The notes beneath the pieces were generated by a model that was not told where the DNA came from, made no database searches, and worked only from the letters and a program-made list of their open reading frames with translations. Position numbers and translations under genes: made by a program. DNA of 64,000 bases from Cohaesibacter marisflavi (GTDB taxonomy: Bacteria > Pseudomonadota > Alphaproteobacteria > Rhizobiales > Cohaesibacteraceae). The stretch spans positions 595,727 to 659,726 of the forward strand of contig NZ_FOVR01000001.1 in the NCBI RefSeq assembly GCF_900115225.1. The letters run 5' to 3'. The number at the start of each line of letters is the position of its first letter. Within the stretch, counting starts at the first letter, position 1. This document shows positions 4,277 to 19,886 of the stretch, in pieces.

Positions 4277-5273
4277 GAGCATGACCATGAACCAAGCCGA
4301 TACGCTTCTCGAAATCAGTGATGTCAGCCGCCTGTTTGGTGGTGGCAAAAGCCTGTTCGGCAAAGTCTTGCCAGCTGTCCATGCGGTGCAGAACGTCAAT
4401 ATCAAGGTCCGCAAGGGCGAAACGCTAGGCATCGTTGGCGAATCCGGCTGTGGCAAGTCAACGCTTGCTCGTTTGGTTGTTGGGCTCGATCTCCCAACAG
4501 ACGGTGCGATCACTTTTGCGGGCAAGGACATGGTGGCTGAGGTCAAGAAAGACCGTCGGCAGATGGCCCGCAAGGTGCAATATGTGTTTCAGGATCCTGT
4601 TGCCTCGCTCAATCCGCGCAAAAAGATCCGCACCATTCTGGAAGCGCCATTGATCCAGCTCTTGAAGCTGAATGCAGAAGAGAGGGAAGCGCGGCTGGTG
4701 GAGCTGATGGAAGCGGTCAATCTGGCTCCGGAATTCCTTGACCGCTATCCGCATGAATTTTCCGGCGGTCAAGCGCAGCGTATCGGGATTGCCCGCGCCC
4801 TTGCGGCTGACCCCGAACTGATCGTGCTAGATGAGCCGGTTTCGGCGTTGGACGTATCCGTTCAGGCTCAGGTGCTGAATATCCTCGACGATCTGAAAGA
4901 AAAATTCGGCCTGACCTACATTTTTATCAGCCATGACCTGTCTGTCGTCGAAAGCATCAGTGATCGCGTTGCGGTGATGTATTTTGGGCGCATGGTCGAA
5001 CTGGGCGATGCTGCGGATGTCTTTGCAGAGGCACATCATCCCTATTCCCGTCTTTTGTTAAAGTCCGCTCCCGTACCCGGGCGCAAGTCGATGTTGTCTG
5101 AAGATGCGAACACCGAGCTGCCCGACCCTTATAATCCGCCACCGGGCTGTGCCTTTTATGCGCGTTGTCCAAGACGGTTGGATATGTGCACAAACGAGGC
5201 ACCCAAACTTGACGCAGCGGGCAAAAAGGCCGATCACCTCAGCGCCTGTTTCAATCCGGAGAACAAAGACTAG
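4269..5273 (+). CDS. Peptide-type ABC transporter ATP-binding protein (DppF/OppF family)
   Basis: This is the second ATPase of the importer, 334 residues. Walker A GESGCGKST lies near residue 57, the signature FSGGQAQR near 162, Walker B LIVLDEP near 184 and the H-loop in FISHDL. The C-terminal CAFYARCPRRLDMC region is the oligopeptide-transporter extension. The ATG at 4269 is chosen because AAGGAGA precedes it and homology starts just after it (LLEISDVSRLF); an in-frame extension back to 4203 would run over the end of the preceding gene. With the ATPase half of the fusion it would form a heterodimeric motor. Confidence 0.93.
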   Translation: MSESMTMNQADTLLEISDVSRLFGGGKSLFGKVLPAVHAVQNVNIKVRKGETLGIVGESGCGKSTLARLVVGLDLPTDGAITFAGKDMVAEVKKDRRQMARKVQYVFQDPVASLNPRKKIRTILEAPLIQLLKLNAEEREARLVELMEAVNLAPEFLDRYPHEFSGGQAQRIGIARALAADPELIVLDEPVSALDVSVQAQVLNILDDLKEKFGLTYIFISHDLSVVESISDRVAVMYFGRMVELGDAADVFAEAHHPYSRLLLKSAPVPGRKSMLSEDANTELPDPYNPPPGCAFYARCPRRLDMCTNEAPKLDAAGKKADHLSACFNPENKD

Positions 5274-6053
5274 ATGTCTATCGAAGACGATCTGGGGCGG
5301 AGAGCCGTTTCGCCCCATCACACTCTGTCCAGCCGTCGACGCAAACGCCCCGATGTGATTGCCGATAAGGTGAGGGACCAGATCGTGACCGCCGACCTGC
5401 GGGTTGGGGATCGTATTCCGGCAGACTGGGTGACCCCCGAAACCCTCAATGCTTCCAGAGGCACAGTGCGTGAAGCACTCAAGATCCTTGAGATTGAGGG
5501 CCTCATCGTCAGTAAGACAGGGCCGGGTGGGGGCCTGTTCGTCTCCTCCATCGATCCGGAAGATGCCATCCGGTTTCTGGACAATCTTTTTCTCGCCGAG
5601 CCGCCATCCATCTCCGATATTTATGCCTTGCGTAAGCAGCTTGAGCCCGTGCTGGCCGCAGAGGTGGCGGGAACCTTGTCTAACGAGCAGTTTGTCCATC
5701 TGCAGTCGCTGATTTATCTCTATCAGGATGAACCCGTATCAGCCGAAGACGAATATCGTCAGCGCTTGGCCGAGCTGGACTTCCATTCCGGTTTGGCCAA
5801 TCTCAGCAAGAACCGCCTGATGGGATTCGTCTGTCGTTTTTTGCATAGCCTGTTGCAGGATAAGTCCGAATGTCGCGCTATCTATTCAGAGCCGACACCC
5901 TGGGGGCAAAGGGAAATGGGCGTGAACTATCAGGTCAAATTGCTGCGTGCGCTAAAAATGGGGGATGCTCTGCTGGCCAGTGCCATCATGCGTGAGCATA
6001 TGATCGAAGCGGAAAAATTCATGATCGAGCGTGCCGTACTGCTGCGCAAGTGA
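5274..6053 (+). CDS. FadR/GntR-family transcriptional regulator
   Basis: This 259-residue repressor-type protein starts immediately after the preceding stop codon, so it is almost certainly the last gene of the importer operon. The N-terminal GntR winged helix-turn-helix (about residues 22-85) includes SRGTVREALKILEIEGLI as recognition helix and wing, followed by a GPGGGLFV turn. The all-helical C-terminal ligand domain looks like FCD (FadR C-terminal). The unusual polar N-terminal 20 residues are not part of the fold. It probably senses the imported solute or a metabolite of it and controls the operon; this role is inferred from position only. Confidence 0.88.
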   Translation: MSIEDDLGRRAVSPHHTLSSRRRKRPDVIADKVRDQIVTADLRVGDRIPADWVTPETLNASRGTVREALKILEIEGLIVSKTGPGGGLFVSSIDPEDAIRFLDNLFLAEPPSISDIYALRKQLEPVLAAEVAGTLSNEQFVHLQSLIYLYQDEPVSAEDEYRQRLAELDFHSGLANLSKNRLMGFVCRFLHSLLQDKSECRAIYSEPTPWGQREMGVNYQVKLLRALKMGDALLASAIMREHMIEAEKFMIERAVLLRK

Positions 6054-6097: not shown

Positions 6098-7282
6098 CTA
6101 GTCGGCAAGGATCTCGAACAGACCGGCTGCCCCTTGGCCGCCACCAATGCACATGCTTGCCACGCCATATTTCGCCCCCCGACGGCGGCCTTCGATCAAA
6201 AGATGCCCTGCCATGCGTGCTCCGGACATACCGTAAGGATGCCCGATGGAAATGGCACCGCCATTGACATTCAGTTTGTCATTATCGATGCCAAGGCTAT
6301 CGCGGCAATAGAGCAGCTGCGAGGCGAAGGCTTCGTTGATTTCCCAGAGGTCGATATCCTCAACCTTCAGGCCGTTTCGGGCCAGTAATTTCGGGATCGC
6401 ACGTACGGGACCGATGCCCATTTCTTCTGCTGCACATCCTGCCACAGCAAAGCCGCGGAAAATGCCAAGAGGTTTCAATCCGCGCAGTTTGGCTTCCGCA
6501 GCCTCCATGAGAACACAGGCTGCCGCGCCATCGGAGAGCTGGCTGGCATTGCCTGCCGTGATGCTCTTGTCTGCCCCCAGTACGGGTTTGAGACGTGCAA
6601 GTCCTTCTGGCGTGGTTTGCGGCCGGTTGCACTCATCCTGCGACAGCGTCACGCGCTCTTCCTGAGAAACACCGGTTTCTTTGTCTCGAGAAACCTTGAC
6701 CGCTTCTACGGGAGTGATTTCTTCGTCGAATCGCCCGTCCTTCTGCGCTTGGGCCGTGCGTTGTTGGCTTTGCAGGGCATAAGCGTCTTGTGCTGCGCGG
6801 GTGATGCCATAGCGCTCGGCCACCAGCTCGGCTGTTTCGATCATAGACATATAATAGCTGTCGCGCACATTGGGATCGCGATAACGATACTGGTTCCAAT
6901 ATTGCTCCAGCTGTACCAAAGAGATGCTGTCTAGTCCGCCGCCAATGGCGACATCGACACCTTCGTTGATGATCATGTGCGCAGCGATGGCTATGGCATT
7001 AAGGCCAGATGCACATTGTCTGTCGATCGTGGAGCCGGCCACCGTGTCCGGCAACCCTGCCGCAAGCACGATATGGCGCCCCACATTGATGCCCGTGCTG
7101 CCTTGGGTCAAAGCCGAGCCGAAGGTGATTTCCTCCAGCGCATCGCCCTCAAGCGACGCGCGTTCCATGGCCGCCTTTACCGCATGGGCTGCAAGACTTG
7201 GCCCTTCAAGATTGTTGAATGCGCCACGATAGGCCTTGCCAATGGGAGTGCGGGCTGTTGAAACAATGACGGCTTGGCGCAT
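6098..7282 (-). CDS. Acetyl-CoA acetyltransferase / 3-ketoacyl-CoA thiolase
   Basis: This 394-residue thiolase cleaves a 3-ketoacyl-CoA with CoA to acetyl-CoA and a shortened acyl-CoA, or works in reverse. All catalytic residues are visible: nucleophile Cys90 in DRQCASG, His348 in GHPYGMSG and Cys378 in MCIGGGQG, with NEAFA before them. The start ATG follows GGAGGAG. It is the last gene of the ten-gene minus-strand operon, about 100 bp after the M20 deacylase gene. With the CoA-transferase pair upstream, the natural reading is activation of a beta-keto acid followed by thiolysis. The acyl-chain specificity cannot be told from the sequence. Confidence 0.94.
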
Positions 7283-7385
7283 ATTTGTCTCCTCCGGCGT
7301 TGCTTACATGCCAGCCTTGGGCGAAAAGGGCAACGCTTTGATTTTTGATCGGCTTTGACGCCAGCGGCGGGGCCGCCAGCATATG

Positions 7386-8678
7386 TTATTGAGCTTCCAA
7401 TCCGCACCAGTCGGCGATGAACAGGGCCGTAGCCATGGTTACGCGCTTGATGCTTTCCAGCGAGACACGCTCATTAAAACCATGGATGGCTTCGGCATGC
7501 GGGCCATAAACGAGCGCTGGTGTATTGGCATAAAGTCCGAAGAACCGCGTGTCCGTGGTGCAGGTGATCGCCATCTGCTCAAGGTCCTTGTTGGTAACGG
7601 CCTTATGGGCTGCGCCAAGCGCCTTGATTGCACTGGATGCCGGTTCACTCTTATCGTCTGATAAGGCATACCCTTCAGCCATGAACCCGTGGTAAACAAC
7701 TGTGGGTTTATTCTCTCTCAGGAAGCTGTTTTCCTCAGCTGCTTGCAGCAAGGTGGTCTCGATATCAGCGCGGGCTGCCTCCAAGTCCTGTCCGGGGAAC
7801 ACGCCCATGCGTACGTCAAACACGCACCATGCCGGTACAGAGCTGGCCCAATCGCCGCCGACAATTTTGCCGACATTGAGGTTGAGGGCGTGATCATGAT
7901 GGGCAAAATCATGATGCCGGTGCTCTGGCGCATTCCAGCGTTTTTCAAGCGCGTGCAAGGCATTGATCAGAGGCACGGCCGCTTCGATGGCGTTGGCCCC
8001 ATCGCCCGCATAGGCCACATGGGTGGGCAGCCCCTTGAGATGGACCTGAAACCAGATGACGCCTGTCTGGGCCTTGACCAGTGTTTCATCGAAGGGTTCG
8101 GGGATGAGGACTGCATCAGCCTTGTAGCCTCGTTGCAAACATGCCAAAGCGCCATTGCCGGTGCATTCTTCTTCGACCACCGATTGGAAAAACACATCTG
8201 CGGCTGGGGCAAAACCGGCAGACCGCAGGGCATCAAGAGCAAACAGGTTGGCAACCAAACCGGCTTTCATGTCGCCAGCCCCGCGCCCATAAAGCCAGTC
8301 CCCTTCAACCTTGGGAGAGAAGGGCGGCGTTTTCCACATATCAAGGGGACCCGCGGGCACCACATCGATATGGCCATTAAGGATCAGGGAACGCCCCTTG
8401 CTGGTTGCGCTTTTATGGGTGCCGACCACATTGACCGCATCATCATAGGAACCGATGACAGGTGAAAAGCCCGGCAATTGGCGGATATCATCAACATTGA
8501 TCTGCCAGCGATCCACTGAATAACCGCGTTCTGACAAAGCGTCAGCCATATAGGCCTGGGCCGATTGTTCCTGACCGCGCGTGGAAGGATGACTGACCAG
8601 TTCGGAAAGAAAATCCGTTTGTTTGTCAAAGTTGGCTTCAACTGCGGAAAGAATTTTGAGTGCAATGTCCTTTTCCAT
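7386..8678 (-). CDS. M20-family metallopeptidase / ArgE-DapE-type deacylase
   Basis: This 430-residue dizinc amidohydrolase removes an acyl group from an N-acyl amino acid or related amide. Metal ligands and catalytic residues are in place: His103 and Asp105 (NGHIDVVPAG), Asp136 (GRGAGDMKAG), the Glu169-171 triplet (SVVEEECTGNG) and a C-terminal His in PHAEAIHGFNE. The dimerisation lid between the catalytic halves is present. The ATG at 8678 is chosen because GGAGGG sits just upstream; an in-frame TTG at 8693 would lie before that ribosome-binding site. Its place in a transamination-thiolysis operon suggests deacylation of an imported N-acyl amino compound, but ArgE, DapE and carboxypeptidase-like activities share this fold. 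Confidence 0.9.
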   Translation of the reverse strand: MEKDIALKILSAVEANFDKQTDFLSELVSHPSTRGQEQSAQAYMADALSERGYSVDRWQINVDDIRQLPGFSPVIGSYDDAVNVVGTHKSATSKGRSLILNGHIDVVPAGPLDMWKTPPFSPKVEGDWLYGRGAGDMKAGLVANLFALDALRSAGFAPAADVFFQSVVEEECTGNGALACLQRGYKADAVLIPEPFDETLVKAQTGVIWFQVHLKGLPTHVAYAGDGANAIEAAVPLINALHALEKRWNAPEHRHHDFAHHDHALNLNVGKIVGGDWASSVPAWCVFDVRMGVFPGQDLEAARADIETTLLQAAEENSFLRENKPTVVYHGFMAEGYALSDDKSEPASSAIKALGAAHKAVTNKDLEQMAITCTTDTRFFGLYANTPALVYGPHAEAIHGFNERVSLESIKRVTMATALFIADWCGLEAQ

Positions 8679-8710
8679 TGTCGCTCCCTCCAATATTTTG
8701 TGTGATCGGA

Positions 8711-9370
8711 TCAGAAGGTGGGAATATCACCTTCCGGAATGATCAGCGGCGCACCCGTCGCTGCAATAACGTCATCAAGCGAGACGCCTTCTGCCAGTTC
8801 TTTAAGGGCAAAGCCTTCAGGGGTGACATCCACAACGGCCATATCTGTGAAGATGCGCTCAACCGAACCCTTCGCGGTCAGAGGCAAGGAGCATCGCTCA
8901 AGCAGCTTGGGATTGCCCTTGCGGTCTGTATGGGTTGTCAGCACCATGACATGGGCAGCCTTTTGTGCCAGCTCGATGCCGCCGCCAACGCCGGGAGAAA
9001 ATTTGCCCGGAATTTTCCAGTTCGCCAGATCGCCATTCTGGGCCACCTCGAAGGCGCCCAGCATGGTCAGGTCCAACCTGCCGGACCGTACGATGGCAAA
9101 GGACACCGCGCTGTCGATGAAGGCACCTCCGGGTAGGGCGCTGATATAAGCCCCACCGGCGTCAATCAGATCGCGATCTGCATGGTCGTAATCCTGCGTC
9201 GGGCCGACACCCACAAGACCATTTTCCGTATGCAGCCCCACTTCCATGTCCGAAGAGAGGTAATTGACGACACGAGTCGGCAAACCGATCCCGAGATTGA
9301 CCAGCATGCCCGGCTCAATCGCACGGGCCGCGCGGGCAACCATTCTTTGTCTAGCGTCGGACAATGGCAT
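8711..9370 (-). CDS. 3-oxoacid CoA-transferase, subunit B
   Basis: This 219-residue beta subunit carries the catalytic glutamate, Glu49, in the ENG motif (HTENGLVGVG) that forms the glutamyl-CoA thioester in family I CoA transferases. Further conserved elements are the N-terminal NLGIGLPT and the GVGGGIELAQ loop. The ATG at 9370 gives MPLSDARQRM, where homology begins; upstream in-frame starts would lie deep in subunit A. It overlaps the subunit A gene by 20 bp. The pair moves CoA from succinyl-CoA or acetyl-CoA onto a 3-oxoacid such as acetoacetate. Substrate choice cannot be told from the sequence. Confidence 0.92.
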   Translation of the reverse strand: MPLSDARQRMVARAARAIEPGMLVNLGIGLPTRVVNYLSSDMEVGLHTENGLVGVGPTQDYDHADRDLIDAGGAYISALPGGAFIDSAVSFAIVRSGRLDLTMLGAFEVAQNGDLANWKIPGKFSPGVGGGIELAQKAAHVMVLTTHTDRKGNPKLLERCSLPLTAKGSVERIFTDMAVVDVTPEGFALKELAEGVSLDDVIAATGAPLIIPEGDIPTF

Positions 9371-10043
9371 ATTCCTTGTGCAAGTCTTTAAGGGCGACCA
9401 CATGATCGACAAAGGGGCCAGGGGTATGGATGGCATCCGGATCAAGATCGCCGATAGGCAGGCAATTCTGGCTTTCGGCGATAACGCAATCGGCTGCCAT
9501 TGCCATCAACGGGTTGAAATTGCGTGCGGTTTTGGCAAAGCACAAATTGCCGTAAGCATCGCACTGTTCTGCATGCACCAGCGCCACATCCGTGCGCAGG
9601 GCTGTTTCCAGAACGAAATCTTTGCCGTCTACCGAGACAATCTGCTTGCCCTCGGCAAGCTCCGTGCCGATGCCGATATCCGAGATGAAACCGGCAAGAC
9701 CAGCGCCGCCAGCCCGAATGCGTTCAGCCAGAATGCCTTGTGCGCAGAATTCCACTTCCAGCGCGCCACTATTCATCATCTCGATGGCATGGCCATTGAG
9801 CCCCAGATGGGTGACGATCAGCTTGCGCACCTGCCCATTGGCCAGCAGATGGTCGATGCCCATGCCCGCCTCATTGGCGTCATTCTTGACGAGGGTCAGA
9901 TCTTTCTGCCCCTGCCGTACCAACTCGGCAATCAGGTTGAAAGGCGTGCCCGGCACGCCGAATCCGCCCACCATGATGGAAGCGCCGTCGCTGATTTGGG
10001 CGACGGCATCTTCAATGGAGCGCTCTTTTTGAGGCAGTCTCAT
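9351..10043 (-). CDS. 3-oxoacid CoA-transferase, subunit A
   Basis: This 230-residue alpha subunit has the glycine-rich signature GGFGVPGTP (residues 26-34) and the VKNDANEAG and NPLMAMAAD segments typical of AtoD, PcaI and ScoA-type subunits. Its start overlaps the stop of the aminotransferase gene by 4 bp (ATGA) and its own end overlaps subunit B by 20 bp, so the three proteins are probably made in coupled amounts. It binds CoA and completes the active site of the two-subunit transferase. The neighbours suggest that the acceptor is the keto acid made by the aminotransferase. Confidence 0.92.
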   Translation of the reverse strand: MRLPQKERSIEDAVAQISDGASIMVGGFGVPGTPFNLIAELVRQGQKDLTLVKNDANEAGMGIDHLLANGQVRKLIVTHLGLNGHAIEMMNSGALEVEFCAQGILAERIRAGGAGLAGFISDIGIGTELAEGKQIVSVDGKDFVLETALRTDVALVHAEQCDAYGNLCFAKTARNFNPLMAMAADCVIAESQNCLPIGDLDPDAIHTPGPFVDHVVALKDLHKEYAIVRR

Positions 10044-11389
10044 GAGGCATTCACTGGCAAATCGAATTTCGCCGCAAGAGCATCAAGGCTCTCGATGAGG
10101 ATACCCATGATTTCGTCAATCTGGGATTCATTGACAATCATGGCCGGAGCAACGAGGAAGTGATCTCCTTCCACTCCTCCACGCGTGCGGCGCGAATAGA
10201 TGATGAGGCCACGCTCATAAGCCAGCTCGACCAGTTCGAGATAGCAGTTATATTCCTTGGGGAGCGGTGTCATGCTGTCCTTGTCGCTGACAAGTTCAAA
10301 CGCCAGCAGCAAGCCCTTGCCACGGACATCGCCAATAAAGGGATAGCGCTCCATAAGGCCTTCAAGACGGGACTTGAGAAGGGCGCCCATGGCGGCACAA
10401 TTGTCGATGAGGCTTAGCCGATCAATTTCCTTGAGCACGGCAACACCCGCCGCACAAGCAAGCGGATTGCCGGCATAGGTATAGCCGTGCAGGAAGCCGC
10501 CGGCATCGAGCAACGCTTCGACCATGGTTTCGCGGGCAACCACAGCCCCAAGCGGCGCGTAGCCGGCGGCAAAGCCTTTGGACATCGCTACGATGTCCGG
10601 TTCGATATCCCAGTGATTGGCAGCAAGGAAAGACCCCGTGCGGCCAACACCGGTCATGACTTCGTCATAGATCAGCAGGATGCCGAATTCCTTGCAGATT
10701 TCGGCAATGCGTCCGTAATAGCTGTCTGGGGCAACCAGAGCGCCGGTAGAAGCGCCTCCAATCGGCTCCATGATGAAGGCGAGAACAGTTTCCGGGCCTT
10801 GTTTGATGATTTCGTCACGTAGCAGTTCGGCATATTTCAGACCACGCTGCTCATCCGTCAGGTTGTCCCGATCCAGATAGCATGCAGGCGCCGCGATCTT
10901 GGGCATATCCCGCATCATCGGGTCAAATGGGCGGGCAAGCGGATCATAGCCTGTCAGAGCCAGCGCTCCGAAGGTGCTGCCATGATAGGACGGAAAACGG
11001 GAAATGACCTTCCAGCGGCTCGATTTGCCCTGCGTGATGGCATATTGGCGCGCCAGTTTGATGGCGCTTTCAACGGCTTCTGAGCCGCCTGAGACAAAGA
11101 ACACGCGATCCAGATTGCCCGGCATGCGTTCTGCCACCATGGAAGCCAGATCTTCGGACGGTTCCGTGCGGAAATGCAGGCGATAGCCGAAGGTGGACTT
11201 GTCCATCTGCGCTTTCATCGCTTCCAGCACATTGGGGTTGGAATGCCCGATATTGGAAACCATGGCGCCGGAAGAGCCATCGATATAGCGTTTTCCGGAT
11301 TGGTCATACATATAGATCCCTTCTGCGCGGTCCAGAAATGGCCTTGGAGCACGGGATTGATAGAAGAGATTAGACGTCTTGTTGCTCAT
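10040..11389 (-). CDS. Class III PLP-dependent aminotransferase
   Basis: This 449-residue fold-type I aminotransferase belongs to the omega-amino acid/beta-alanine/GABA aminotransferase superfamily. The conserved [18 protein letters not shown] cofactor-phosphate loop, the [11 protein letters not shown] motif with the pyridine-binding Asp, and the Schiff-base Lys near residue 271 ([12 protein letters not shown]) are all seen. These enzymes move an amino group from a non-alpha amine, often to pyruvate or 2-oxoglutarate. It overlaps both neighbours by 4 bp and lies between the importer ATPase and the CoA transferase. A beta-amino acid substrate would give the beta-keto acid the downstream enzymes need; this is inference. 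Confidence 0.92.
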
Positions 11390-12156
11390 TTTGCGCCTTC
11401 GAGATGCTTTCTAAGGAAATTCTTGGTTCTGTCTTGCGTCGGATTGTGGAAGACAACCTCAGGGGCGCCTTCCTCGACGACGACACCGCCATCCATGAAC
11501 AGAACCCGATCGCAAACGCTCTCGGCAAATCCCATTTCGTGGGTGACGATGATCATGGTCATGGCTTCCTCAGCCAACATTTTCATGACCTGGTTGACCT
11601 CTTCGACCAGTTCCGGGTCAAGCGCTGACGTTGCTTCGTCAAACAGCATCAGTTTGGGTTTCATGGCGAGCGCGCGCGCAATAGCCACGCGCTGCTTCTG
11701 GCCGCCAGACAATTGCGAGGGGTGATAGTCAATCCGGTCGATGAGCCCGACATGCTCGAGCTGCTGCTCGGCGAGCGCATTGGCTTCATCATCGGAAACA
11801 CCCTTGAGCAGCTTGGGTGCCAGCGTGATATTTTCCCGCACGGTCAGGTGAGGGAACAGATTGAAATGCTGGAACACCATGCCGATTTGCTGGCGTACCT
11901 GATTGATATGCTTTTCATATTGGGCGTGTGGCAACAGCTTGTTGACCTGAACCCCATCCAGCCAGACCTCGCCGGAGGTCAGCGGATCAAGATCGTTGAT
12001 TGCGCGCAGGAGCGTGGATTTGCCCGAGCCACTGGGGCCGATGATGGCAACGATTTGCTGCTGCTCGACCTGCAGACTGATATCCTTGAGAACTTCCAGC
12101 TCACCAAAGCATTTCTGGGCGTGGCGAATATCGACAAAGGGACGATGATGCGTCAT
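11386..12156 (-). CDS. Polar amino acid ABC transporter ATP-binding protein (GlnQ/HisP family)
   Basis: This 256-residue cytoplasmic ATPase has Walker [10 protein letters not shown] (about residues 40-48), a Q-loop in [11 protein letters not shown], signature [15 protein letters not shown], Walker [15 protein letters not shown] and an H-loop VTHEMGF. The DEATSALD variant is common in the amino-acid subfamily. The start ATG follows GGAAGGATC. It powers the importer formed with the two permeases upstream in the operon and the binding protein at its head. Its stop overlaps the aminotransferase start by 4 bp, so uptake and catabolism are translated together. Confidence 0.94.
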
Positions 12157-12177
12157 GGAATGATCCTTCCGACAGGC

Positions 12178-12834
12178 TTAACGAGAGGCTTGAACACGGC
12201 GTTCGAGACGACGCAACACCGCTTCCATGCCCAGATTGATGATGTAGTAGCAAACCGCGGCAACCGCGTAGAATTCAAACGGCCGGTATGTGCGCCCGAT
12301 GGCCAGCTGCGCCGACAGGGTCAGCTCCGTAACGCCGATAACCGAGACCAGAGCCGAGTCCTTCAAGAGAGCGATCATGTTGTTGCCAATCGGGGGAATG
12401 ACATCGCGCACAGCCTGCGGGATCACGATATAGCGCAGGGATTGGCCGCGGCTGAGTCCGAGGGTTCGCGCAGCTTCCATCTGGCCCTTGTCCACCGCCA
12501 GAATACTGGTCTGGATCAGTTCCGAGTTATAAACCGCGAAATGCAGTCCGAGCCCTAGCGATCCGGCCACAAAGGCAGGAAGGTCAATGCCGATCTGAAT
12601 GAGACCGAAATAGATGAGAAACAGCTGAAGCAGTAGTGGTGTTCCCATGAAGAGCCATTCAAAGCCCTTCATCGGCCAACTGATCACACGCGGCGCATAA
12701 AGCGCGATAACGGCGAAAAAGATGCCGCCAAAGAAACTGAGAACAGCTGCCGCCACCGTAATGGCAATTGTCCAGAAGACGCCTTGCATGATGACGTCGA
12801 AGAAGCCGGGTACGACCGAAAAATCAAGCCCCAT
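12178..12834 (-). CDS. Polar amino acid ABC transporter permease (HisM/GlnP family)
   Basis: This 218-residue inner-membrane permease of the HEQRO (BPD_transp_1) family has about five helices. The conserved cytoplasmic coupling loop is EAARTLGLSRGQSLRYIVIPQAVRD (shown here as a motif; key residues E, A, G and P are intact). The ATG at 12834 follows TTGGAGG; an in-frame TTG inside that ribosome-binding site is rejected as the start. It lies 21 bp from the ATPase gene and 27 bp from the sister permease gene, with which it would form a heterodimeric channel. Confidence 0.93.
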   Translation of the reverse strand: MGLDFSVVPGFFDVIMQGVFWTIAITVAAAVLSFFGGIFFAVIALYAPRVISWPMKGFEWLFMGTPLLLQLFLIYFGLIQIGIDLPAFVAGSLGLGLHFAVYNSELIQTSILAVDKGQMEAARTLGLSRGQSLRYIVIPQAVRDVIPPIGNNMIALLKDSALVSVIGVTELTLSAQLAIGRTYRPFEFYAVAAVCYYIINLGMEAVLRRLERRVQASR

Positions 12835-12861
12835 GACGGCCTCCAATCAAATCTTGAAAAA

Positions 12862-13509
12862 TCATTGAATCCGCACCTTCTTGTCGAGCCAGCTGATGCC
12901 GCGTCCGGTTGCATAGATGATGATCATGTAAAGAACACCAGCCAGAATGAACATTTCAAATGGCTTGTAGGTTGAGCCGATATAGCGCTGAGCGGTATAG
13001 GTAAGCTCGACAACCGAGATTGCCGCAACTAGGGCCGTGCCCTTGATGAGCGCATTGATGTTAACGCCCAGCGGGCGCACCATCAGGCGAAAGGCTTGCG
13101 GCAAGATCACATAGCGCGTGGCCTGCCAACGACTCATGCCCAACGTTCTGGCCGCTTCTGTCTGGCCCTTGTGAACCGAAATGATGGCGCCACGAATGGT
13201 TTCTGTCATATAGGCCCCGATATTGAGACCGAGCCCGATAACGCCGGCTTGAAAGGCATCCAACTGAATGCCGATCTGCGGACCACCGAAATAGAGCAAA
13301 AATAACTGGATGAGGGCAGGGGTGCCACGAAACAGACTAACATAGGCTGCTCCGATGAAACGGATTGCCTTAAGGCGCGACAGTCGCGCCGCTGCGCCCA
13401 GTGAACCACAGATAAGGCCAAGAATAGCCGTGAGAACCGACAGTTCGATGGTCAGTACGGCCGCCTTGAGAAAGTGGGGATAGACCCGGAGGATAAGATC
13501 AATATCCAT
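12862..13509 (-). CDS. Polar amino acid ABC transporter permease (HisQ/GlnP family)
   Basis: This 215-residue permease has the same architecture as the next gene: N-terminal helix from about residue 10, the FRGTPALIQLFLLYFG motif before helix 3, and a coupling loop with EAARTLGMSRWQATR near residue 135. The ATG is preceded by GAGGA. Two non-identical permeases of this type usually pair as QM heterodimers. Both keep the ATPase-contact glycine. It belongs to the importer of the minus-strand catabolic operon. Confidence 0.93.
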   Translation of the reverse strand: MDIDLILRVYPHFLKAAVLTIELSVLTAILGLICGSLGAAARLSRLKAIRFIGAAYVSLFRGTPALIQLFLLYFGGPQIGIQLDAFQAGVIGLGLNIGAYMTETIRGAIISVHKGQTEAARTLGMSRWQATRYVILPQAFRLMVRPLGVNINALIKGTALVAAISVVELTYTAQRYIGSTYKPFEMFILAGVLYMIIIYATGRGISWLDKKVRIQ

Positions 13510-13521
13510 ATAGTGCAGTCC

Positions 13522-14313
13522 TCAATGATGATCCTTGCGCTCCAGAAGCGGTAGCTCCCGGATTTCACGCACCAGATCGGCTGTTTCTTCAATCGCAGCT
13601 TTCAGGAAAGCTTCGCCATTTTCGGCTGTTGCGAGCGCAGGATCGCCCATGGTGCCATCAGGGGACACCGAAGACCACCAGCGCATCAACATCGCCTTGC
13701 CACCTCCACGCGCCAAATCGAGGTTGAAGAATTTGCTCTTGCCATCATGCAGATTCTGGTTCTGGGCCTTTTCCAGATGCACCAGATCCGGATGCAGATA
13801 TTTGTAGATCGCCGCTTCAAATTCGCCTGCATGGGCGATGCCGCCGATATCGGACGCGCGAACCGCATTGATCTTGTCCGAGCACAGGTTCCAGTAAGAG
13901 GCCGAAACACAAAGAATGCCGGTTTCAATGACGGTCTTTCGCGCTGCCAAATCCAGAACCGGGTGATTGGACCCATGAGAATTGAGCAGCAGTATGCGCC
14001 GGAAACCATGATGCGCGAGGGATTTGGTTACATCGGTCACGAATGCAATCAGTGTTTCGGGCTGTATCCAGATAACACCCGGAAAATCCTTGTGATGCTC
14101 ATTGAAGCCATAGGAAATGGGCGGCATGACAAGAACCTGATCAGGTATGGCTTTGGCTACACCTTCTGCAACCGCCATGCCCAGAACCGTATCGGTATCA
14201 AGAGGCATGTGGGGCCCGTGATCTTCTGTTGCTGAAACGTTGAGAATCACGACGCGGTCTTTGTCGATATCGCGCACCTCTTCCCAGCTGAGCTTGCCAT
14301 AGTCAGTCTGCAT
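13522..14313 (-). CDS. Creatininase-family metal-dependent amidohydrolase
   Basis: This 263-residue member of the creatininase superfamily hydrolyses a cyclic or linear amide with a dinuclear metal centre. Likely metal ligands are Glu30 and His32 in ATEDHGPHMP, Asp39 or Asp41 in LDTDT, His in NSHGSNHP (about residue 113) and Glu in HAGEFEAA. The family includes creatininase, formamide hydrolases of riboflavin and pyrrolopyrimidine pathways and many uncharacterised members, so creatinine is only one possible substrate. It sits between the binding-protein and permease genes, so its substrate is likely to be the imported compound. No creatinase or sarcosine oxidase gene is nearby, which argues against creatinine use. 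Confidence 0.87.
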   Translation of the reverse strand: MQTDYGKLSWEEVRDIDKDRVVILNVSATEDHGPHMPLDTDTVLGMAVAEGVAKAIPDQVLVMPPISYGFNEHHKDFPGVIWIQPETLIAFVTDVTKSLAHHGFRRILLLNSHGSNHPVLDLAARKTVIETGILCVSASYWNLCSDKINAVRASDIGGIAHAGEFEAAIYKYLHPDLVHLEKAQNQNLHDGKSKFFNLDLARGGGKAMLMRWWSSVSPDGTMGDPALATAENGEAFLKAAIEETADLVREIRELPLLERKDHH

Positions 14314-14391
14314 GAGAAAAGTCTTTCGGGAAAAATTGGCCCGCAGAAAACCTGCGGACCATATTATATTGAAAAATATTTGGTTTTGAAA

Positions 14392-15177
14392 TTAGCGAAT
14401 GTCGCCGCCAACCCATTTGTTGGCAATTTCGAGGTAGGTGCCGTCAGCCATCAAGTCATCCAGTGCCTTCTGCATGGCTGCTTTCAGATCCGGGTTGCCT
14501 TCGCGGATGGCAATACCAGCACCAAAGGCCTCGGTATCAAGGTCTGGCAGTTCAACCATTTTGTAGCCGTTTTCCTTGATGGCGAGCATGGCTGCGATAC
14601 GGTCGTTGACGATCGCATCAACACGGCCATTGTCCAGTTCCATGAGCAATTCCGGCAGGCCTTTATAGGTGCGGATCTTGTAGCCGGCTTCACGGGCCCA
14701 CTGTTCGTGGGTCTCACCCAGAGTAACGCCCAGAGTGGCATCATCAAGCTGAGATACGCTTGTGATTTCAGAGCCTTCCTTGGTGAAGATGGCGCGCTTG
14801 GTGGCATAGTAAGGACCAACAAAGTCAACAACTTTGTCGCGTTCTTCGGTGATTGTCATGGAGCCGACGATCGCGTCATACTTGTTGGCCAAGAGGCCGC
14901 CGATGATGCCGTCCCATGCGGTGGTGATGATTTCAACTTCAAGGCCCATGCGCTTGGCGATTTCGGTGCCGATGGCCGGGTCGAAGCCGACCACTTCGTT
15001 GGCGTCATTGACAAAGTTGAATGGAGGATAGGCGCCACTCATGGCAATGCGAATTACGCCTTTTTCCTTGATGGTGTCGAGTTCGTCGGCGAGAACCGGA
15101 GCGGAAATGCTAAGGCTTGCCAGCACGAGCGTGCCGGTGGCTGCGACAAACTTCAACAAGCTGCGACGGTTGATCAT
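14392..15177 (-). CDS. Polar amino acid-type ABC transporter substrate-binding protein
   Basis: This 261-residue periplasmic protein of the SBP_bac_3 family opens the minus-strand operon. Residues 1-30 form a signal peptide: positive MINRR, a hydrophobic core, and a likely cut after APVLA. Conserved elements are the mature start LDTIKEKGVIRIAMSGAYPPF, the domain-crossing stretch with GFDPAIGTEIAKRMG and the ligand motif DAIVGSMTITEER. The carboxylate-binding Arg of amino-acid binders may be that in TEERDK. The start ATG follows AGGAGAA. It delivers an amino-acid-like compound to the two permeases encoded downstream. Confidence 0.93.
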   Translation of the reverse strand: MINRRSLLKFVAATGTLVLASLSISAPVLADELDTIKEKGVIRIAMSGAYPPFNFVNDANEVVGFDPAIGTEIAKRMGLEVEIITTAWDGIIGGLLANKYDAIVGSMTITEERDKVVDFVGPYYATKRAIFTKEGSEITSVSQLDDATLGVTLGETHEQWAREAGYKIRTYKGLPELLMELDNGRVDAIVNDRIAAMLAIKENGYKMVELPDLDTEAFGAGIAIREGNPDLKAAMQKALDDLMADGTYLEIANKWVGGDIR

Positions 15178-15228
15178 TAAGATTCTCCTGTTTGAAGCGA
15201 AAACTGTTCCCTGGCGTTTTGCCTAATT

Positions 15229-15244
15229 TTTAGCAGTGACTAAA
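15229..15244. promoter_or_regulatory. Inverted repeat in the divergent LysR / operon gap
   Basis: TTTAG-cagtga-CTAAA lies in the 150-bp AT-rich gap between the binding-protein gene (minus) and the LysR gene (plus). It is the best dyad in the gap and has the T-N11-A spacing of LysR-type operators within it. A looser pair (ATCATCA near 15280 and TGATGA near 15310) flanks the LysR start. Assignment as the LysR operator is inference. Confidence 0.4.
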
Positions 15245-15327
15245 TTTTTGCCACCTTGTCTTGAAGGTTGCATGGGATGTATCATCAAGCAAATAAATAA
15301 TTCCAATGATGAGTATAGATTGGATCT

Positions 15328-16284
15328 ATGATGAGGCCCTATGAACAGCGGTTTCCCTGGAATCTTGATTGGAACCTGCTCCGAACCTTCATGGTTGTGG
15401 TTGAGCAAAAAAGCATCACCAAAGCTGCAGATTTCTTGGGGTTGAAACAACCTACGGTCAGTGCTGCGCTTAAAAGGCTTGAAGAAATAACGGGCCACAA
15501 GCTGATTGTGCGCAAACCCAACCAGTTCAGGGTAACGAGGGCCGGAGATATTCTATATTATGAATGCTCTACGATCTTCGGCAGTGTGTCCCAGCTTCCC
15601 TCTCTATTGGATCGTGGTGAGGATGAGCTCAGAGGACACATTACGTTGGTTGTTGCAAGCCATGTGGTTTGTCCCCAATTCGACGAAGTGTTGGCACAAT
15701 ATGCCCGTCTGCACGACAAGGTGACCTTTTCTATCTCTGTGGCTGATAGTGAAGAGATCGTCAGTCGGGTGGGGCAGAATCGCGCCAGCTTCGGCGTCTG
15801 CCTCGTCAACAACAGCGCCGAGACGCTGGATGCGGAGATTCTCTATCGCGAGTATTTCGCTCTTTATTGTGGTCCGAACCACCGGCTCTTCAGACAGAAA
15901 GACATAGATGTTGCGGAATTGATCGGCGAGCCCAGCGTATCCTTCCAAACAGAAGTGGAAGGGGGGGCTCTGGAGCCTGTGGCGAATCTGCGGGCGCGGG
16001 TTCAGGCCGCGACTCGCTGGCATGGGGTCTCATCCAACCTTGTCGAGGTGCGCCGCATGATCGTCGCCAATATCGGAATTGGTGCTTTGCCGGTCCATGT
16101 TGCCAGAAGGGATGTGGAGCGGGGGCTGTTGTACCAATTGCCCCCCTATGAAAATCTGCCGCTTGTGGATGTCTTTCTGGTTTCCAATCCCAAACGGCGC
16201 GCGTCTGATGCGGAGGCAGAATTCCTGCGTCTTTGCACTGAGAGGATATTCAGCCTTCCGCTCAGTGAAAGAACCTTTAAATAG
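15328..16284 (+). CDS. LysR-family transcriptional regulator
   Basis: This 318-residue regulator is transcribed away from the catabolic operon. The N-terminal winged helix-turn-helix (about residues 15-75) contains the usual pattern with QKSITKAADFLGLKQPTVS and a downstream TRAG. The C-terminal two-lobe LysR substrate domain (about 100-305) binds an effector. The arrangement is classical for a LysR activator of a divergent operon, so it probably responds to the imported compound or an intermediate. The start could be the ATG at 15328 or the next one at 15331. The gene ends 42 bp before the convergent SorC gene. Confidence 0.91.
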   Translation: MMRPYEQRFPWNLDWNLLRTFMVVVEQKSITKAADFLGLKQPTVSAALKRLEEITGHKLIVRKPNQFRVTRAGDILYYECSTIFGSVSQLPSLLDRGEDELRGHITLVVASHVVCPQFDEVLAQYARLHDKVTFSISVADSEEIVSRVGQNRASFGVCLVNNSAETLDAEILYREYFALYCGPNHRLFRQKDIDVAELIGEPSVSFQTEVEGGALEPVANLRARVQAATRWHGVSSNLVEVRRMIVANIGIGALPVHVARRDVERGLLYQLPPYENLPLVDVFLVSNPKRRASDAEAEFLRLCTERIFSLPLSERTFK

Positions 16285-16326: not shown

Positions 16327-17346
16327 TCAGGCTTTGTCGAGAATGCTCAGGGCCGTTTGTTCGTCGGTAACAAGCACATTGATGAAATCCCCTCGCAACG
16401 CGCCGAGCATGGAGGCGGTCTTGTCGGTGCCGCCAGCAACGGCAATTCGTGTGGGAACCTGCCTGACCTCATCAAGCGTGATGCCCATCAGACGGTCATC
16501 CAGTGGTCCTTGAATCCAGTTGCCATTCGCGTCAAAGAAGCGCCCGGAAATCACTCCGACAGCACCGTTTGCAATGTAATATTTGCTTTCCTCGGCGTTG
16601 GTCAATCCACTGGCAAAGACAAGGCTGTTGTCCTTGACCGAACAGACGCCAAACAGGATCTTGTTGCAGGAGCGAATGCGTGCGAACTGTTCCTGTATGA
16701 TGGTTTCCTTCAGCAAGGCATCGCGCAATTCCTTGTTGCTCAGAGCGGCCGGTGCATGGAGATTGGCAGTCTTTGCGTGCAGCTTGAGAGAAATGAGGGA
16801 TACACACTCCTCTGAACTGAAGCCGTCCGATGTGCCGCGCTGGCTACCAACGACCTGAACCACGTAGAGATTCGACATGGACTGGTCGGTCAGATTGTTG
16901 GCGAGTGCCTGCACGGTGCGGCCCCAGGCAACCCCAACCACATCATCAGGCGCCAGTGCCCCTTCAACAAAACTTGCTCCGGCTTTGCCGATGCGTTGTG
17001 TCGGGGAAAGCAGGCCGCCATCATCGGGTATGACCATGCATTCTTTCAGGCCGAATTTATCCTTGAGGGTCTGTGCCAGATTGATGCTAGTGAGTAGATC
17101 ACTACGTACCGAGATCTTGATATAGTGGTTAGCACGTGCTTCTTGTAGGTAATTGACAACAGTTGCGCGCGACACGCCTAATAGCGACGCGATCTGGTTC
17201 TGAGTTAATTCGTCATGGTAATAAAGCCATGCCGCCCACAATCTAGGGTCGTTCTGATAGGTCGCCGGTGTTGCAACGCCATTCGCCGCCGGTGGTTTCC
17301 CCACCGAAGCCGTTTTCCCAGACTGTGTTTTTGTCGGCGATTTCAT
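16327..17346 (-). CDS. SorC/LsrR-family sugar-binding transcriptional regulator
   Basis: This 339-residue protein has a Ser/Thr/Pro/Ala-rich N-terminal tail (about 30 residues), then a helix-turn-helix (about 46-75: LTQNQIASLLGVSRATV), and a long sugar-phosphate-binding domain with the DDVVGVAWGRTV and GRFFDANG motifs typical of SorC, DeoR-like CggR and LsrR proteins. These bind phosphorylated sugars and control sugar-uptake operons. It is divergent from the importer at 17766, as lsrR is from the lsr operon. Ligand is likely the phosphorylated product of the PfkB kinase encoded downstream; this is inference. Confidence 0.9.
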   Translation of the reverse strand: MKSPTKTQSGKTASVGKPPAANGVATPATYQNDPRLWAAWLYYHDELTQNQIASLLGVSRATVVNYLQEARANHYIKISVRSDLLTSINLAQTLKDKFGLKECMVIPDDGGLLSPTQRIGKAGASFVEGALAPDDVVGVAWGRTVQALANNLTDQSMSNLYVVQVVGSQRGTSDGFSSEECVSLISLKLHAKTANLHAPAALSNKELRDALLKETIIQEQFARIRSCNKILFGVCSVKDNSLVFASGLTNAEESKYYIANGAVGVISGRFFDANGNWIQGPLDDRLMGITLDEVRQVPTRIAVAGGTDKTASMLGALRGDFINVLVTDEQTALSILDKA

Positions 17347-17390
17347 ATCCCTTAGGCCTTCCCGAACTTATATTTTTCAATTGTCAAATT

Positions 17391-17418
17391 ATTATAGCAA
17401 AAGTCATTGTGGTTGCAA
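17391..17418 (-). promoter_or_regulatory. Sigma-70-like promoter for the SorC gene
   Basis: On the minus strand TTGCAA (17418-17413) and a perfect TATAAT (17396-17391) are separated by 16 bases, about 45 bp upstream of the SorC start codon. An initiation point near 17384 would give a leader of about 38 nt. TTGTCAAATT at 17381-17390 lies on the predicted start point and could serve as an autoregulatory half-site. Confidence 0.55.
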
Positions 17419-17765
17419 TCCCAAATAAATCAAGGGATTTGTGCGGTTACTATTCCTATTTTGACACTTGACAAAAATATCTGACAAAGGTTACCGTCCA
17501 TATGACGAGAGGATAACGGTATCCAAACGTCACAACTGCTTTTGCTGCTGTAATAGGTGTTTTACCCGAGTTCGGTCAAGTCAAAGTCCAACTGGGAGTC
17601 GATGGGCTCGTCAGTTAACGGGAGATGTTTGGCTTGTCGAATGTGTGGGGGAAGGGATCTTGCAAAGGGCATTGGCAGGTTCAATCGGGGTGAGGTCCGA
17701 GCGAACAAAATTCATTGGGCCGCGAACCTGGTTGTTGGGTTTGCGTCACAATAAGGGAGGAATAC
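17419..17765. other. Non-coding divergent control region of the sugar importer
   Basis: About 350 bp between the SorC promoter and the permease gene hold no credible gene. Three related hexamers lie close together: TTGACA at 17461-17466, TTGACA at 17468-17473 and CTGACA at 17481-17486. They could be -35 elements or repeated regulator half-sites. The ribosome-binding site AGGGAGG for the permease sits at the right edge. I could not place a convincing -10 element. Confidence 0.5.
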
Positions 17766-18782
17766 ATGTCCAATAGTGTGTCGAACAGGTCTCTGTGGCA
17801 ATCCGTCACGTCCGACCGCCAGTTCAATTTTCTTGTTGTTGTCAATCTGCTGGTTTTAACCGCCGCGGTCTCCATTTCTGGAATTGACTTTGTCAACGCC
17901 TATAACCTTCAATCGATGGCTATCCAGATCCCCGAGCTCGGGCTTCTCGCAATTGGCGTGACCCTGGCGATGATTTCGGGCAACGGTGGCATTGATTTGT
18001 CTGGCATCGCGTTGGCCAACCTTTCAGGCATCACCGCAGCCTTGCTGGTCCCTCAATTCATATCACCTGACGATAGTCCGATGACATATGTCTTCGTCTT
18101 CGGATTTGTCTGTCTGTGTGTTGGCTTTGTAGGTGGCATCGTCAATGGTCTGTTGGTGTCTCGTGCCAATCTGACGCCGATTATCGCAACGCTCGGCACT
18201 TCGCTTGCCTTTACAGGGGTGAGTGTCGTTCTGACCAACGGGTCTGGTGTACGTCTGGGCTATATCGAGCCACTTGATGCTTTCGGCCATTCGCCCATCA
18301 TGGGAGTTCCGATGTGCTTTGCCCTGTTCTTGGTCATTGCCATCATTATCGGTGCTGTTCTGCGTTTCACGCCATTCGGAACGCGGCTCTTCCTCCTTGG
18401 AAGTAATCCGAAAGCCGCTCGCTTCGCCGGTTTTAATGAAAAGAGACTGTTTCTGACGGCCTACACCATTTCCGGAATGTTGGCCTCGGTTGCTGGTTTC
18501 ATCATTGCTGCGCGCATTTCGAGCGTCAAATGGGACTATGGTACCTCTTATGTCCTCATCGCCATCCTGATCGTTGTGATGGCAGGCGTAAAGCCTGAAG
18601 GGGGATATGGCCGCATCTCATGCGTGATTCTGTCAGCAGCTGCGCTGCAGATTCTATCGAGCATGTTCAATTTTCTGAACATCTCGAACTTTTTCCGGGA
18701 CTTCGCCTGGGGCGTTCTTCTGCTGGTCTTCTTGGCTGTGTCCAAGTTTGACCTCAGGGTCTGGCGCCTCACCAAATCTTGA
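17766..18782 (+). CDS. Sugar ABC transporter permease (RbsC/LsrC family)
   Basis: This 338-residue BPD_transp_2 permease has about nine to ten membrane helices. The diagnostic NGGIDLSGIALANLSG stretch near residue 75, the GSNPKAARFAGFN coupling loop near 215 and the ILIVVMAGVKPEGGYGR segment are seen. The ATG at 17766 is chosen over an in-frame start 51 bp upstream because GGGAGG precedes it. The gene is the first of the plus-strand operon and pairs with a second, different permease at 21831, the two-permease layout of Lsr and some pentose importers. Confidence 0.92.
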   Translation: MSNSVSNRSLWQSVTSDRQFNFLVVVNLLVLTAAVSISGIDFVNAYNLQSMAIQIPELGLLAIGVTLAMISGNGGIDLSGIALANLSGITAALLVPQFISPDDSPMTYVFVFGFVCLCVGFVGGIVNGLLVSRANLTPIIATLGTSLAFTGVSVVLTNGSGVRLGYIEPLDAFGHSPIMGVPMCFALFLVIAIIIGAVLRFTPFGTRLFLLGSNPKAARFAGFNEKRLFLTAYTISGMLASVAGFIIAARISSVKWDYGTSYVLIAILIVVMAGVKPEGGYGRISCVILSAAALQILSSMFNFLNISNFFRDFAWGVLLLVFLAVSKFDLRVWRLTKS

Positions 18783-18881
18783 AAGGGGAAGGACCGGTCT
18801 GTCCGGCAGGCACCCTCGATGCCGGGCATTTGAGCCAGAGGGAGTTCTTTAAGGTTTTAGGGAGAGAAAGGAACTACCGCA

Positions 18882-19886
18882 ATGTCTAAACTGAACAAAC
18901 TCGCAATGTGCGCCCTGATGGTGGGAACGATGTTCTCGGGAGGTCAGGCTGTTGCACAGGACGACAAGGAAATCGTTACCGTTGTCAAGCTGCTCGGCGA
19001 AACCTGGTTCCGTCGTATGGATGTGGGCGTAACAGAATATGGTAAAGTTACCGAAGGCGTAACCACCAAGGAAATCGGCCCGGGTAAAGGCGATGCTGCC
19101 CAGCAGGTCCGTCTCGTCGAAGACCTGATCGCAAAAGGCGTAGACGCCATCGCGGTCGTACCATTTGATCCGCCCATGATGGAAGGTGCTCTGAAACGCG
19201 CCATGGATCGCGGCATCACCGTCATTACACACGAAGCCTCCAACCTGAAAAACACCCAGGTCGACATGGAAGCGTTCGATAATGATGCCTTTGGTGCGCA
19301 CTTCAACGACCAGATCGCCAAATGCATGGGCGAAGAAGGCACCTGGACATCTTTCGTTGGCTCGCTCGGCAGCCTGACCCACGTACAGTGGGCTGATGCT
19401 TCTGCGGCAAACGCCAAAGAAAAATATCCGAATATGAAACTCGTCTCCGCAAAGAATGAGTCGTTCAACGATGCAAACACCGCTTATAACAAAGCCAAGG
19501 AACTTCTGAAAAAGTATCCTGACATCAAAGGCTTCCAGGGTGGTTCTGCTGTTGACGTGATCGGCATCGGTCGCGCCATCGAGGAAGCCGGGCTGACCGG
19601 TAAGGTTTGTGTCTATGGTATCGGCATGCCTACCGATACGAGCCGCTACCTCAAGAGTGGTGCTGTCACCGGCATCAGCCTTTGGGATCCGAAAGACGCC
19701 GGCTTCATCATGAACAAGATCGCGCATCTGGTTCTCAATGGTGAAGAACTCAAAGACGGCATGGATCTGGGTGTACCTGGCTACACCAACATGAAACTGA
19801 AAAAAGGCCCGGGTAAAGGGGTTCTTCTTGTTGGTCAGGCTTGGCTCGACATCAACAAGGACAATGTCGACGAATATCAATTCTAA
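18882..19886 (+). CDS. Sugar ABC transporter substrate-binding protein (LsrB/RhaS-like)
   Basis: This 334-residue periplasmic protein of the Peripla_BP_4 fold has a signal peptide (residues 1-25, cut after AVAQ or AQA). Mature features are ETWFRRMDVGVTEYG, the DLIAKGVDAIAVVPFDP strand-helix unit, and ITHEA in place of the usual D of ribose binders, which matches LsrB and rhamnose-type proteins. AAAGGA precedes the ATG. It lies between the first permease gene and the ATPase gene. Substrates of this subfamily include autoinducer-2, rhamnose and pentitols; the exact ligand cannot be told here. Confidence 0.9.
   Translation: MSKLNKLAMCALMVGTMFSGGQAVAQDDKEIVTVVKLLGETWFRRMDVGVTEYGKVTEGVTTKEIGPGKGDAAQQVRLVEDLIAKGVDAIAVVPFDPPMMEGALKRAMDRGITVITHEASNLKNTQVDMEAFDNDAFGAHFNDQIAKCMGEEGTWTSFVGSLGSLTHVQWADASAANAKEKYPNMKLVSAKNESFNDANTAYNKAKELLKKYPDIKGFQGGSAVDVIGIGRAIEEAGLTGKVCVYGIGMPTDTSRYLKSGAVTGISLWDPKDAGFIMNKIAHLVLNGEELKDGMDLGVPGYTNMKLKKGPGKGVLLVGQAWLDINKDNVDEYQF

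Follow-up and report, generated by a model that had tools for sequence, protein, structure and literature searches.

Comparison with described systems

The degradation of N6-acetyl-β-lysine in Pseudomonas was reportedly described by Barker and co-workers, with a transaminase (EC 2.6.1.65) and a deacetylase-thioesterase (EC 3.5.1.51). In this route, β-lysine is acetylated inside the cell, and the steps can be assigned one to one to an aminotransferase, a coenzyme A (CoA) transferase, a thiolase and a deacylase. The corresponding gene set (class III aminotransferase, two-subunit CoA transferase, M20 and thiolase) is present in a ten-gene operon of Cohaesibacter marisflavi, located in a 64,000-nucleotide stretch of its genome (hereafter, the window). 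Unlike the Pseudomonas route, the operon includes an ATP-binding cassette (ABC) importer and a creatininase-family gene, with no acetyltransferase. Judging by the gene sets, the operon probably imports and degrades N6-acetyl-β-lysine or β-lysine. We describe it as a β-lysine-type route in which the dedicated importer and an unexplained accessory hydrolase are the new features.

The second related system is found in Bacillus. On a Bacillus velezensis plasmid, the order is aminotransferase-CoA A-CoA B-M20-ablB-ablA, with ablB and ablA annotated as β-lysine N-acetyltransferase and lysine 2,3-aminomutase. On a B. subtilis plasmid, the first five genes (aminotransferase to ablB) are annotated, and an ablA match lies behind them. 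We take these genes to be those named kamA(ablA)-yodP(ablB)-yodQ-yodR-yodS-yodT. The aminotransferase, the CoA transferase subunits A and B, and the M20 enzyme are ordered as in the window. The Bacillus operon, however, holds the aminomutase and the acetyltransferase, the stretches covered carry no annotated importer or thiolase, and its enzymes are only 34–48% identical to those of the window (B. subtilis plasmid: aminotransferase 39%, CoA A 45%, CoA B 48%, M20 34%). YodT was termed uncharacterized in one report (PMC6522883). The preliminary description of the window knew of no named pathway with this gene set; that statement does not hold, since the N6-acetyl-β-lysine route has these steps and the Bacillus counterparts adjoin ablB and ablA.

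Alphaproteobacterial relatives show a similar association. In Rhizobium sp. C104, an aminomutase-like gene is clustered with CoA A, CoA B, M20 (71% identical to that of the window), thiolase and a GNAT acetyltransferase gene. The aminomutase-like product belongs to a lysine 2,3-aminomutase-like family (TIGR03822, 555.9 bits; cut-off 396). Plasmids of R. bangladeshense and R. leguminosarum carry CoA A-B-M20-thiolase-GNAT-class III aminotransferase next to a divergent LysR gene; the annotation of the stretches covered, itself incomplete, lists no aminomutase.

Ectoine uptake and degradation (Ehu/Doe) shares with the proposed pathway an SBP_bac_3 importer, a compatible-solute logic and the deacetylation of an N-acetyl diamino acid, but is not known to involve a CoA transferase or thiolase. 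The Ehu models all scored under their cut-offs in the window (score/cut-off in bits: EhuA 306.1/345.4, EhuD 153.4/205.2, EhuC 154.1/197, EhuB 88.6/190.9), and an ectoine/hydroxyectoine importer was rejected.

Gene content of the operon

The operon had been described beforehand as ten minus-strand genes beside a divergent LysR gene, and this was borne out. The ten genes (6098–15177, minus strand) and the LysR gene (15328–16284, plus strand) are all open frames with family matches. Overlaps of 4–20 bp had also been noted; three junctions do overlap (4, 4 and 20 bp), whereas at the others the genes lie 12 to 103 bp apart. Coordinates are positions in the window, with start codons as chosen in this analysis.

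6098–7282, minus: acetyl-CoA C-acyltransferase (thiolase); TIGR01930, 420 bits, cut-off 240.6
7386–8678, minus: M20 ArgE/DapE-type deacylase; NF005306, 634.6 bits, cut-off 376; ATG behind GGAGGG
8711–9370, minus: 3-oxoacid CoA-transferase subunit B; TIGR02428, 266.2 bits, cut-off 243.6; 48% to Bacillus
9351–10043, minus: 3-oxoacid CoA-transferase subunit A; TIGR02429, 242.7 bits, cut-off 128.5; 45% to Bacillus
10040–11389, minus: class III aminotransferase; PF00202; 39% to the Bacillus ablAB-operon enzyme
11386–12156, minus: amino-acid-type ABC transporter ATPase; EhuA 306 and GlnQ 306 bits, both under cut-off
12178–12834, minus: ABC permease 2; PF00528; HEQRo_perm_3TM above cut-off
12862–13509, minus: ABC permease 1; HEQRo_perm_3TM above cut-off
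13522–14313, minus: creatininase-family amidohydrolase; PF02633, 228 bits
14392–15177, minus: SBP_bac_3 periplasmic binding protein; PF00497, 141 bits
15328–16284, plus: LysR-type regulator, divergent; PF00126 and PF03466

For CoA-transferase subunit B, the ATG at 9370 was preferred over the TTG at 9445 of the open reading frame list. The enzymes keep what we take to be the functional motifs of their families: the thiolase its Cys/His/Cys catalytic motifs (residues 88, 316, 347 and 377), the M20 enzyme its metal-ligand motifs, CoA-transferase subunit B its ENG motif, and the aminotransferase its pyridoxal phosphate lysine. The thiolase scored 534.5 bits against NF005494, under the cut-off of 615, and the aminotransferase was under the cut-offs of the equivalog models PRK07483 and PRK06917.

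Conservation in Cohaesibacter and beyond

The genus survey covered 61 genomes (our own, 17 other Cohaesibacter, and the remainder from the family and order), with the aminotransferase as query at E ≤ 1e-150. Matches were obtained in 18 genomes, 13 of them from the genus, i.e., 13 of the 18 Cohaesibacter genomes including our own. In all 13 genus loci, the set from the binding protein to the thiolase has a constant order and lies beside LysR, the creatininase-family gene excepted. The LysR gene adjoins the binding-protein gene on the opposite strand in each of the 12 other genus loci. Operon variants are present in many other Alphaproteobacteria, and the gene order is common to Rhodobacterales and Cohaesibacter. 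Because it is kept in 13/18 Cohaesibacter and in many other Alphaproteobacteria, the set goes beyond chance; it is a real, conserved catabolic operon.

Two loci contain fragmented genes. In L040 (G400:C12:18500-38000), the CoA-transferase A match consists of two overlapping pieces (~10591–11281), and the gene may be broken or misassembled. In L060 (Sinorhizobium meliloti pSymA, CP140882), the CoA-transferase genes ahead of M20 are annotated as five pieces (6386–7985), which suggests decay of the operon in that strain.

Two alternative modules

A wider scan used an alignment of nine aminotransferases as the query. The best 80 of 578 confirmed loci were returned, so this 80-locus set is biased to near relatives; 64 of its members with at least 5 kb on each side formed a 64-locus set. 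In the latter, the CoA-transferase pair was present in 31 loci (30 with M20), BKACE in 26 (24 with an HDAC-like gene), and neither in 7. The CoA-transferase pair and BKACE occurred together in none of the 64 loci. M20 and HDAC were found together in a single locus (L066), where the HDAC match was 33% identical and on the opposite strand. The Fisher values for the two exclusions (7e-12 and 5e-12) ignore relatedness and are descriptive only. The thiolase lies next to the CoA pair in 17 of 31 loci. A linked GNAT gene accompanied 19 of the 26 BKACE loci (9/9 with the transporter, 10/17 without); among the CoA loci it was seen in 5/28 with the transporter and 3/3 without.

The BKACE-HDAC variant (Shinella, Phyllobacterium, Pararhizobium and others) has a close aminotransferase, 59–67% identical to that of the window in the three genera named, and the same transporter type in 11 of the 36 BKACE loci among the best 80 of 578. 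It differs from the window operon in that BKACE takes the place of the CoA transferase and thiolase, an HDAC-like enzyme takes the place of M20, and a GNAT gene is often present. In an aminotransferase tree of 48 rows (careful method, long branches flagged), 26 cluster-type rows from both modules formed one clade. We also observed a locus (L044, 8023–18704) in which an aminotransferase 73% identical to that of the window is accompanied by an HDAC-like gene, with nearby frames read by eye as hydantoinase and uracil phosphoribosyltransferase.

The modules can serve as functional equivalents: either one can cleave a 3-oxo acid via CoA chemistry and remove an N-acyl group. Since CoA transferase/M20 is swapped for BKACE/HDAC, often with an acetyltransferase, the acyl group would be a protecting group that is removed at the end. 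We regard this general scheme as likely, with good confidence.

Proposed pathway

In the pathway that we infer, its C6 chain included, N6-acetyl-β-lysine would be taken up by the ABC importer; alternatively, β-lysine would be imported and could be acetylated by an acetyltransferase encoded elsewhere in the genome. The class III aminotransferase would take the β-amino group, giving 3-oxo-6-acetamidohexanoate, in which the acetyl on the distal amine would stop cyclisation onto the new ketone until its removal after cleavage. The CoA transferase would form the CoA ester, and the thiolase would split 3-oxo-6-acetamidohexanoyl-CoA into acetyl-CoA and 4-acetamidobutyryl-CoA. The M20 enzyme, acting last and not first, would deacetylate 4-acetamidobutyryl-CoA or 4-acetamidobutyrate to 4-aminobutyrate for central metabolism; two matches to succinate semialdehyde dehydrogenase in our genome are above the cut-off.

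Part of the preliminary interpretation is retained here: import, transamination of a β-amino acid, CoA activation and thiolysis are supported by the gene context, and creatinine use was rightly doubted, the reason given then being the lack of a nearby creatinase or sarcosine oxidase. Its order of steps is not, as ring opening and deacylation had been placed ahead of transamination, and the module swap together with the GNAT genes of the BKACE loci points to removal of the acyl group at the end. The creatininase-family enzyme as a core step and the lack of a named pathway are given up as well.

Our genome, which is 98% complete, had no match to KamA/AblA (TIGR03820) and none to AblB; therefore, the compound should come from outside. 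It does contain an unlinked cluster-type GNAT gene (G000:C24:73759-74241; 45% to the Shinella GNAT), flanked by apparent TetR and uracil-DNA glycosylase genes. This gene was found in 12 of the 13 operon-bearing Cohaesibacter genomes and in none of the five operon-less ones (Fisher 0.0007; 0.002 when the 64%-complete G389 is left out; relatedness uncorrected).

Whether the substrate arrives acetylated was approached from two sides. From 25 transporter+CoA loci without linked GNAT, 20 genomes were sampled, with L075, L078, L085, L087 and L133 left out. The Shinella GNAT query at E ≤ 1e-12 gave no match in 18 of the 20, although with one query a diverged homologue could be missed; the matches in the other two were from Hoeflea and Cohaesibacter. 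These absences suit import of an already acetylated compound. Moreover, the binding protein has Ser47 at a position that is Asp or Glu in the five solved relatives with the best scores, of which three are reconstructed ancestral proteins. Among 61 rows, which include some identical ones and some that share an assembly (e.g., L036 and L134), the position is Ser in 59 and Thr in 2. Ser or Thr in place of an acidic residue would suit a ligand with a neutral distal group, such as the acetylated compound. The simpler argument that an operon without acetyltransferase must receive a pre-acetylated substrate was not adopted: the unlinked GNAT and its co-occurrence in the genus weaken it, and the 18/20 absences strengthen it.

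The creatininase-family gene

Creatininase (EC 3.5.2.10) shares PF02633 and most metal-ligand positions with the window protein. The positions that we take to be creatininase Glu34, His36, Asp45, His120 and His178 are kept; on the same assumed numbering, Glu122 aligns to Ser, and Trp174 falls in an insertion without counterpart. The protein was under the cut-offs of all four models that it matched (creatininase, MftE, IolN and ArfB), with 115.7 bits against 235 for creatininase (TIGR04448) and 125.7 against 172 for the MftE (mycofactocin) peptidase (TIGR03964). With half the required score and two presumed creatininase residues missing, creatinine use was rejected. Our genome has two more creatininase-family genes (G000:C15:8603-9325 and G000:C32:28726-29469), 27–28% identical to that of the operon.

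The gene is present in 9 of the 13 genus loci. It is missing from L035, L036, L037 and L038, where the remaining set is kept, so that it does not qualify as the core step it was first taken for. Across 385 genomes of the class, at E ≤ 1e-60, the protein was found in our own genome and in G194 only, in the latter again between binding protein and permease. In the creatininase-less L035–L038, the binding protein is 83–84% and the aminotransferase 94–95% identical to the window's, as if the ligand range had changed; in L039, which has the gene, the values are 95% and 94%. Presence of the gene required 6 changes on the binding-protein tree versus 9 on the aminotransferase tree (61 loci, quick method), which hints weakly at a link between the gene and the transported ligand.

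Haloarchaeal plasmids (L146, Natronorubrum; L147, Natrinema) bring together M20, a creatininase-family gene (40%), distant CoA-transferase genes and an aminotransferase (37–38%), which suggests that a creatininase-family gene can belong to such a pathway. In L146, the cluster adjoins a PotD-type ABC system and an Xaa-Pro-peptidase-family gene. In the 80-locus set, an M20-type amidohydrolase and an alanine-racemase-like gene occurred in 15 loci, one of them also with the creatininase family, and a DMFA2-like gene in 7; our guess is that these are alternative front-end hydrolases. No extra hydrolase is essential, because 7 of the 28 transporter+CoA loci of the 64-locus set have neither the creatininase family nor the amidohydrolase. 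We conclude that the creatininase-family enzyme is accessory, and infer that it probably lets the pathway also accept the imported compound as an amide or in a cyclic form.

Evidence against the assignment and alternative substrates

Several observations weigh against assigning the operon to N6-acetyl-β-lysine or β-lysine. An aminomutase-like gene was seen in only one alphaproteobacterial locus, that of Rhizobium sp. C104, and the 17-kb stretch covered there has no aminotransferase match; no aminomutase match was found in the 80-locus set (0/80, best 80 of 578). In the aminotransferase tree, the window clade and the Bacillus enzymes are not sisters, the latter falling with enzymes of haloarchaea and others; nor does the M20 tree (26 rows, long branches flagged) make the Bacillus enzyme a sister of the window clade. 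The Bacillus aminotransferase is 40–42% identical to many other plasmid aminotransferases, so its 39% identity to that of the window is nothing special; identities of ~39–50% are likewise common among other 3-oxoacid CoA transferases. Orthology to the Bacillus enzymes is therefore not taken to prove the substrate, for which the argument rests on the gene sets. Furthermore, of the 34 loci in the 80-locus set that have the CoA pair, only 19 have the thiolase next to it. The window operon itself has no acetyltransferase gene, and G392 is an operon-bearing genus genome without the unlinked GNAT. BKACE loci with the transporter carry GNAT in 10 of 11 cases in the 80-locus set, though their binding proteins share the Ser, which weakens the case for an already acetylated ligand. 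Finally, none of ten class III matches to γ-aminobutyrate transaminase in our genome is above the family cut-off.

In the order of steps first suggested for the window, a simple β-amino acid in N-acyl or lactam form would be opened by the creatininase-family enzyme and deacylated by M20, then transaminated, activated by CoA and thiolysed. The transporter and two hydrolases do share one operon, the haloarchaeal cluster joins M20, the creatininase family, two CoA-transferase genes and an aminotransferase, and relatives have other extra hydrolases (amidohydrolase with racemase-like gene, 15/80; DMFA2-like, 7/80). Nevertheless, we consider this order unlikely: an acetyltransferase paired with a deacetylase in the BKACE module (GNAT in 19/26) makes little sense for a mono-amino acid, the Bacillus M20 gene adjoins an acetyltransferase gene, and the creatininase gene is missing in 4 of 13 genus loci. 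The same protecting-group logic could also serve another ω-N-acyl β-amino acid, such as a β-ornithine derivative (leading to β-alanine) or a substituted β-lysine. This would agree with trees that do not tie the window aminotransferase or M20 specifically to the Bacillus enzymes, and with an aminomutase-like gene in one alphaproteobacterial relative only. Such a substrate seems improbable to us, however, as the aminomutase-like gene by the CoA, M20 and thiolase genes is lysine 2,3-aminomutase-like, and acetylated β-lysine is known in nature (PMC1224877, PMC4685198).

The binding protein and the ATPase are similar to those of general amino acid systems, as would fit an ordinary amino-acid operon with a proteinogenic amino acid as the ligand of the binding protein and with enzymes that have separate substrates. 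A gene order common to Rhodobacterales, Cohaesibacter and other loci, and equivalent modules swapped as units, make this explanation very improbable. On balance, we favour N6-acetyl-β-lysine or β-lysine as the substrate.

Regulatory sequences and neighbouring genes

14314–14391, minus: candidate stem-loop, intergenic, between the binding-protein gene and the rest of the operon; GGTCCGCAG...CTGCGGGCC ahead of T-rich sequence, read by eye
15178–15327, no strand assigned: divergent promoter region with a TTAG-N6-CTAA dyad as candidate LysR site, read by eye

A stem-loop between the binding-protein gene and the downstream genes is usual in ABC importer operons, and a stem-loop-like sequence was likewise read by eye in the creatininase-less loci. 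The TTAG-N6-CTAA dyad was seen in 11 of the 13 genus sequences (by eye, no statistics) and was missing in L042 and L043; a repeat search of the window promoter region returned another pair only.

The region 2324–6053 (plus strand), convergent with the thiolase gene, holds an oligopeptide-type ABC transporter (a 650-residue frame in which permease and ATPase domains are combined, plus a second ATPase) and a FadR/GntR-type regulator gene. Of the 12 other genus loci, 4 have this regulator gene beside the operon. On the other side (16327–19886) are a Sugar-bind-domain regulator (minus) and an ABC permease with a Peripla_BP_4 binding protein (plus).

Biological implications

N6-acetyl-β-lysine has been found in methanogens, in green sulfur bacteria and in B. 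cereus (PMC1224877, PMC4685198), and was proposed for Pelobacter (PMC3543383). An importer for acetyl-β-lysine would be plausible in a bacterium of saline habitats. Among the listings of open-licence PubMed Central full text, nothing on this operon was found, which is weak evidence of absence as most subscription papers lie outside that collection; the part seen of PMC4922564 does not mention an acetamido substrate.

More tentatively, and with considerable doubt, marine Alphaproteobacteria may scavenge the archaeal osmolyte N6-acetyl-β-lysine by means of a dedicated importer, with the creatininase-family enzyme as a new amidohydrolase freeing it from an amide, a peptide or a cyclic form. In that case, genes for the N6-acetyl-β-lysine transaminase and the 4-acetamidobutyryl-CoA deacetylase would also be provided by the operon.

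If the proposed assignment is true, the operon would provide candidate genes, in two interchangeable versions, for a route known mainly from enzymology, and would suggest a role for the uncharacterized Bacillus operon. The creatininase-family enzyme would gain a testable frame, and a compatible solute of methanogens and green sulfur bacteria would be linked to bacteria that could consume it.

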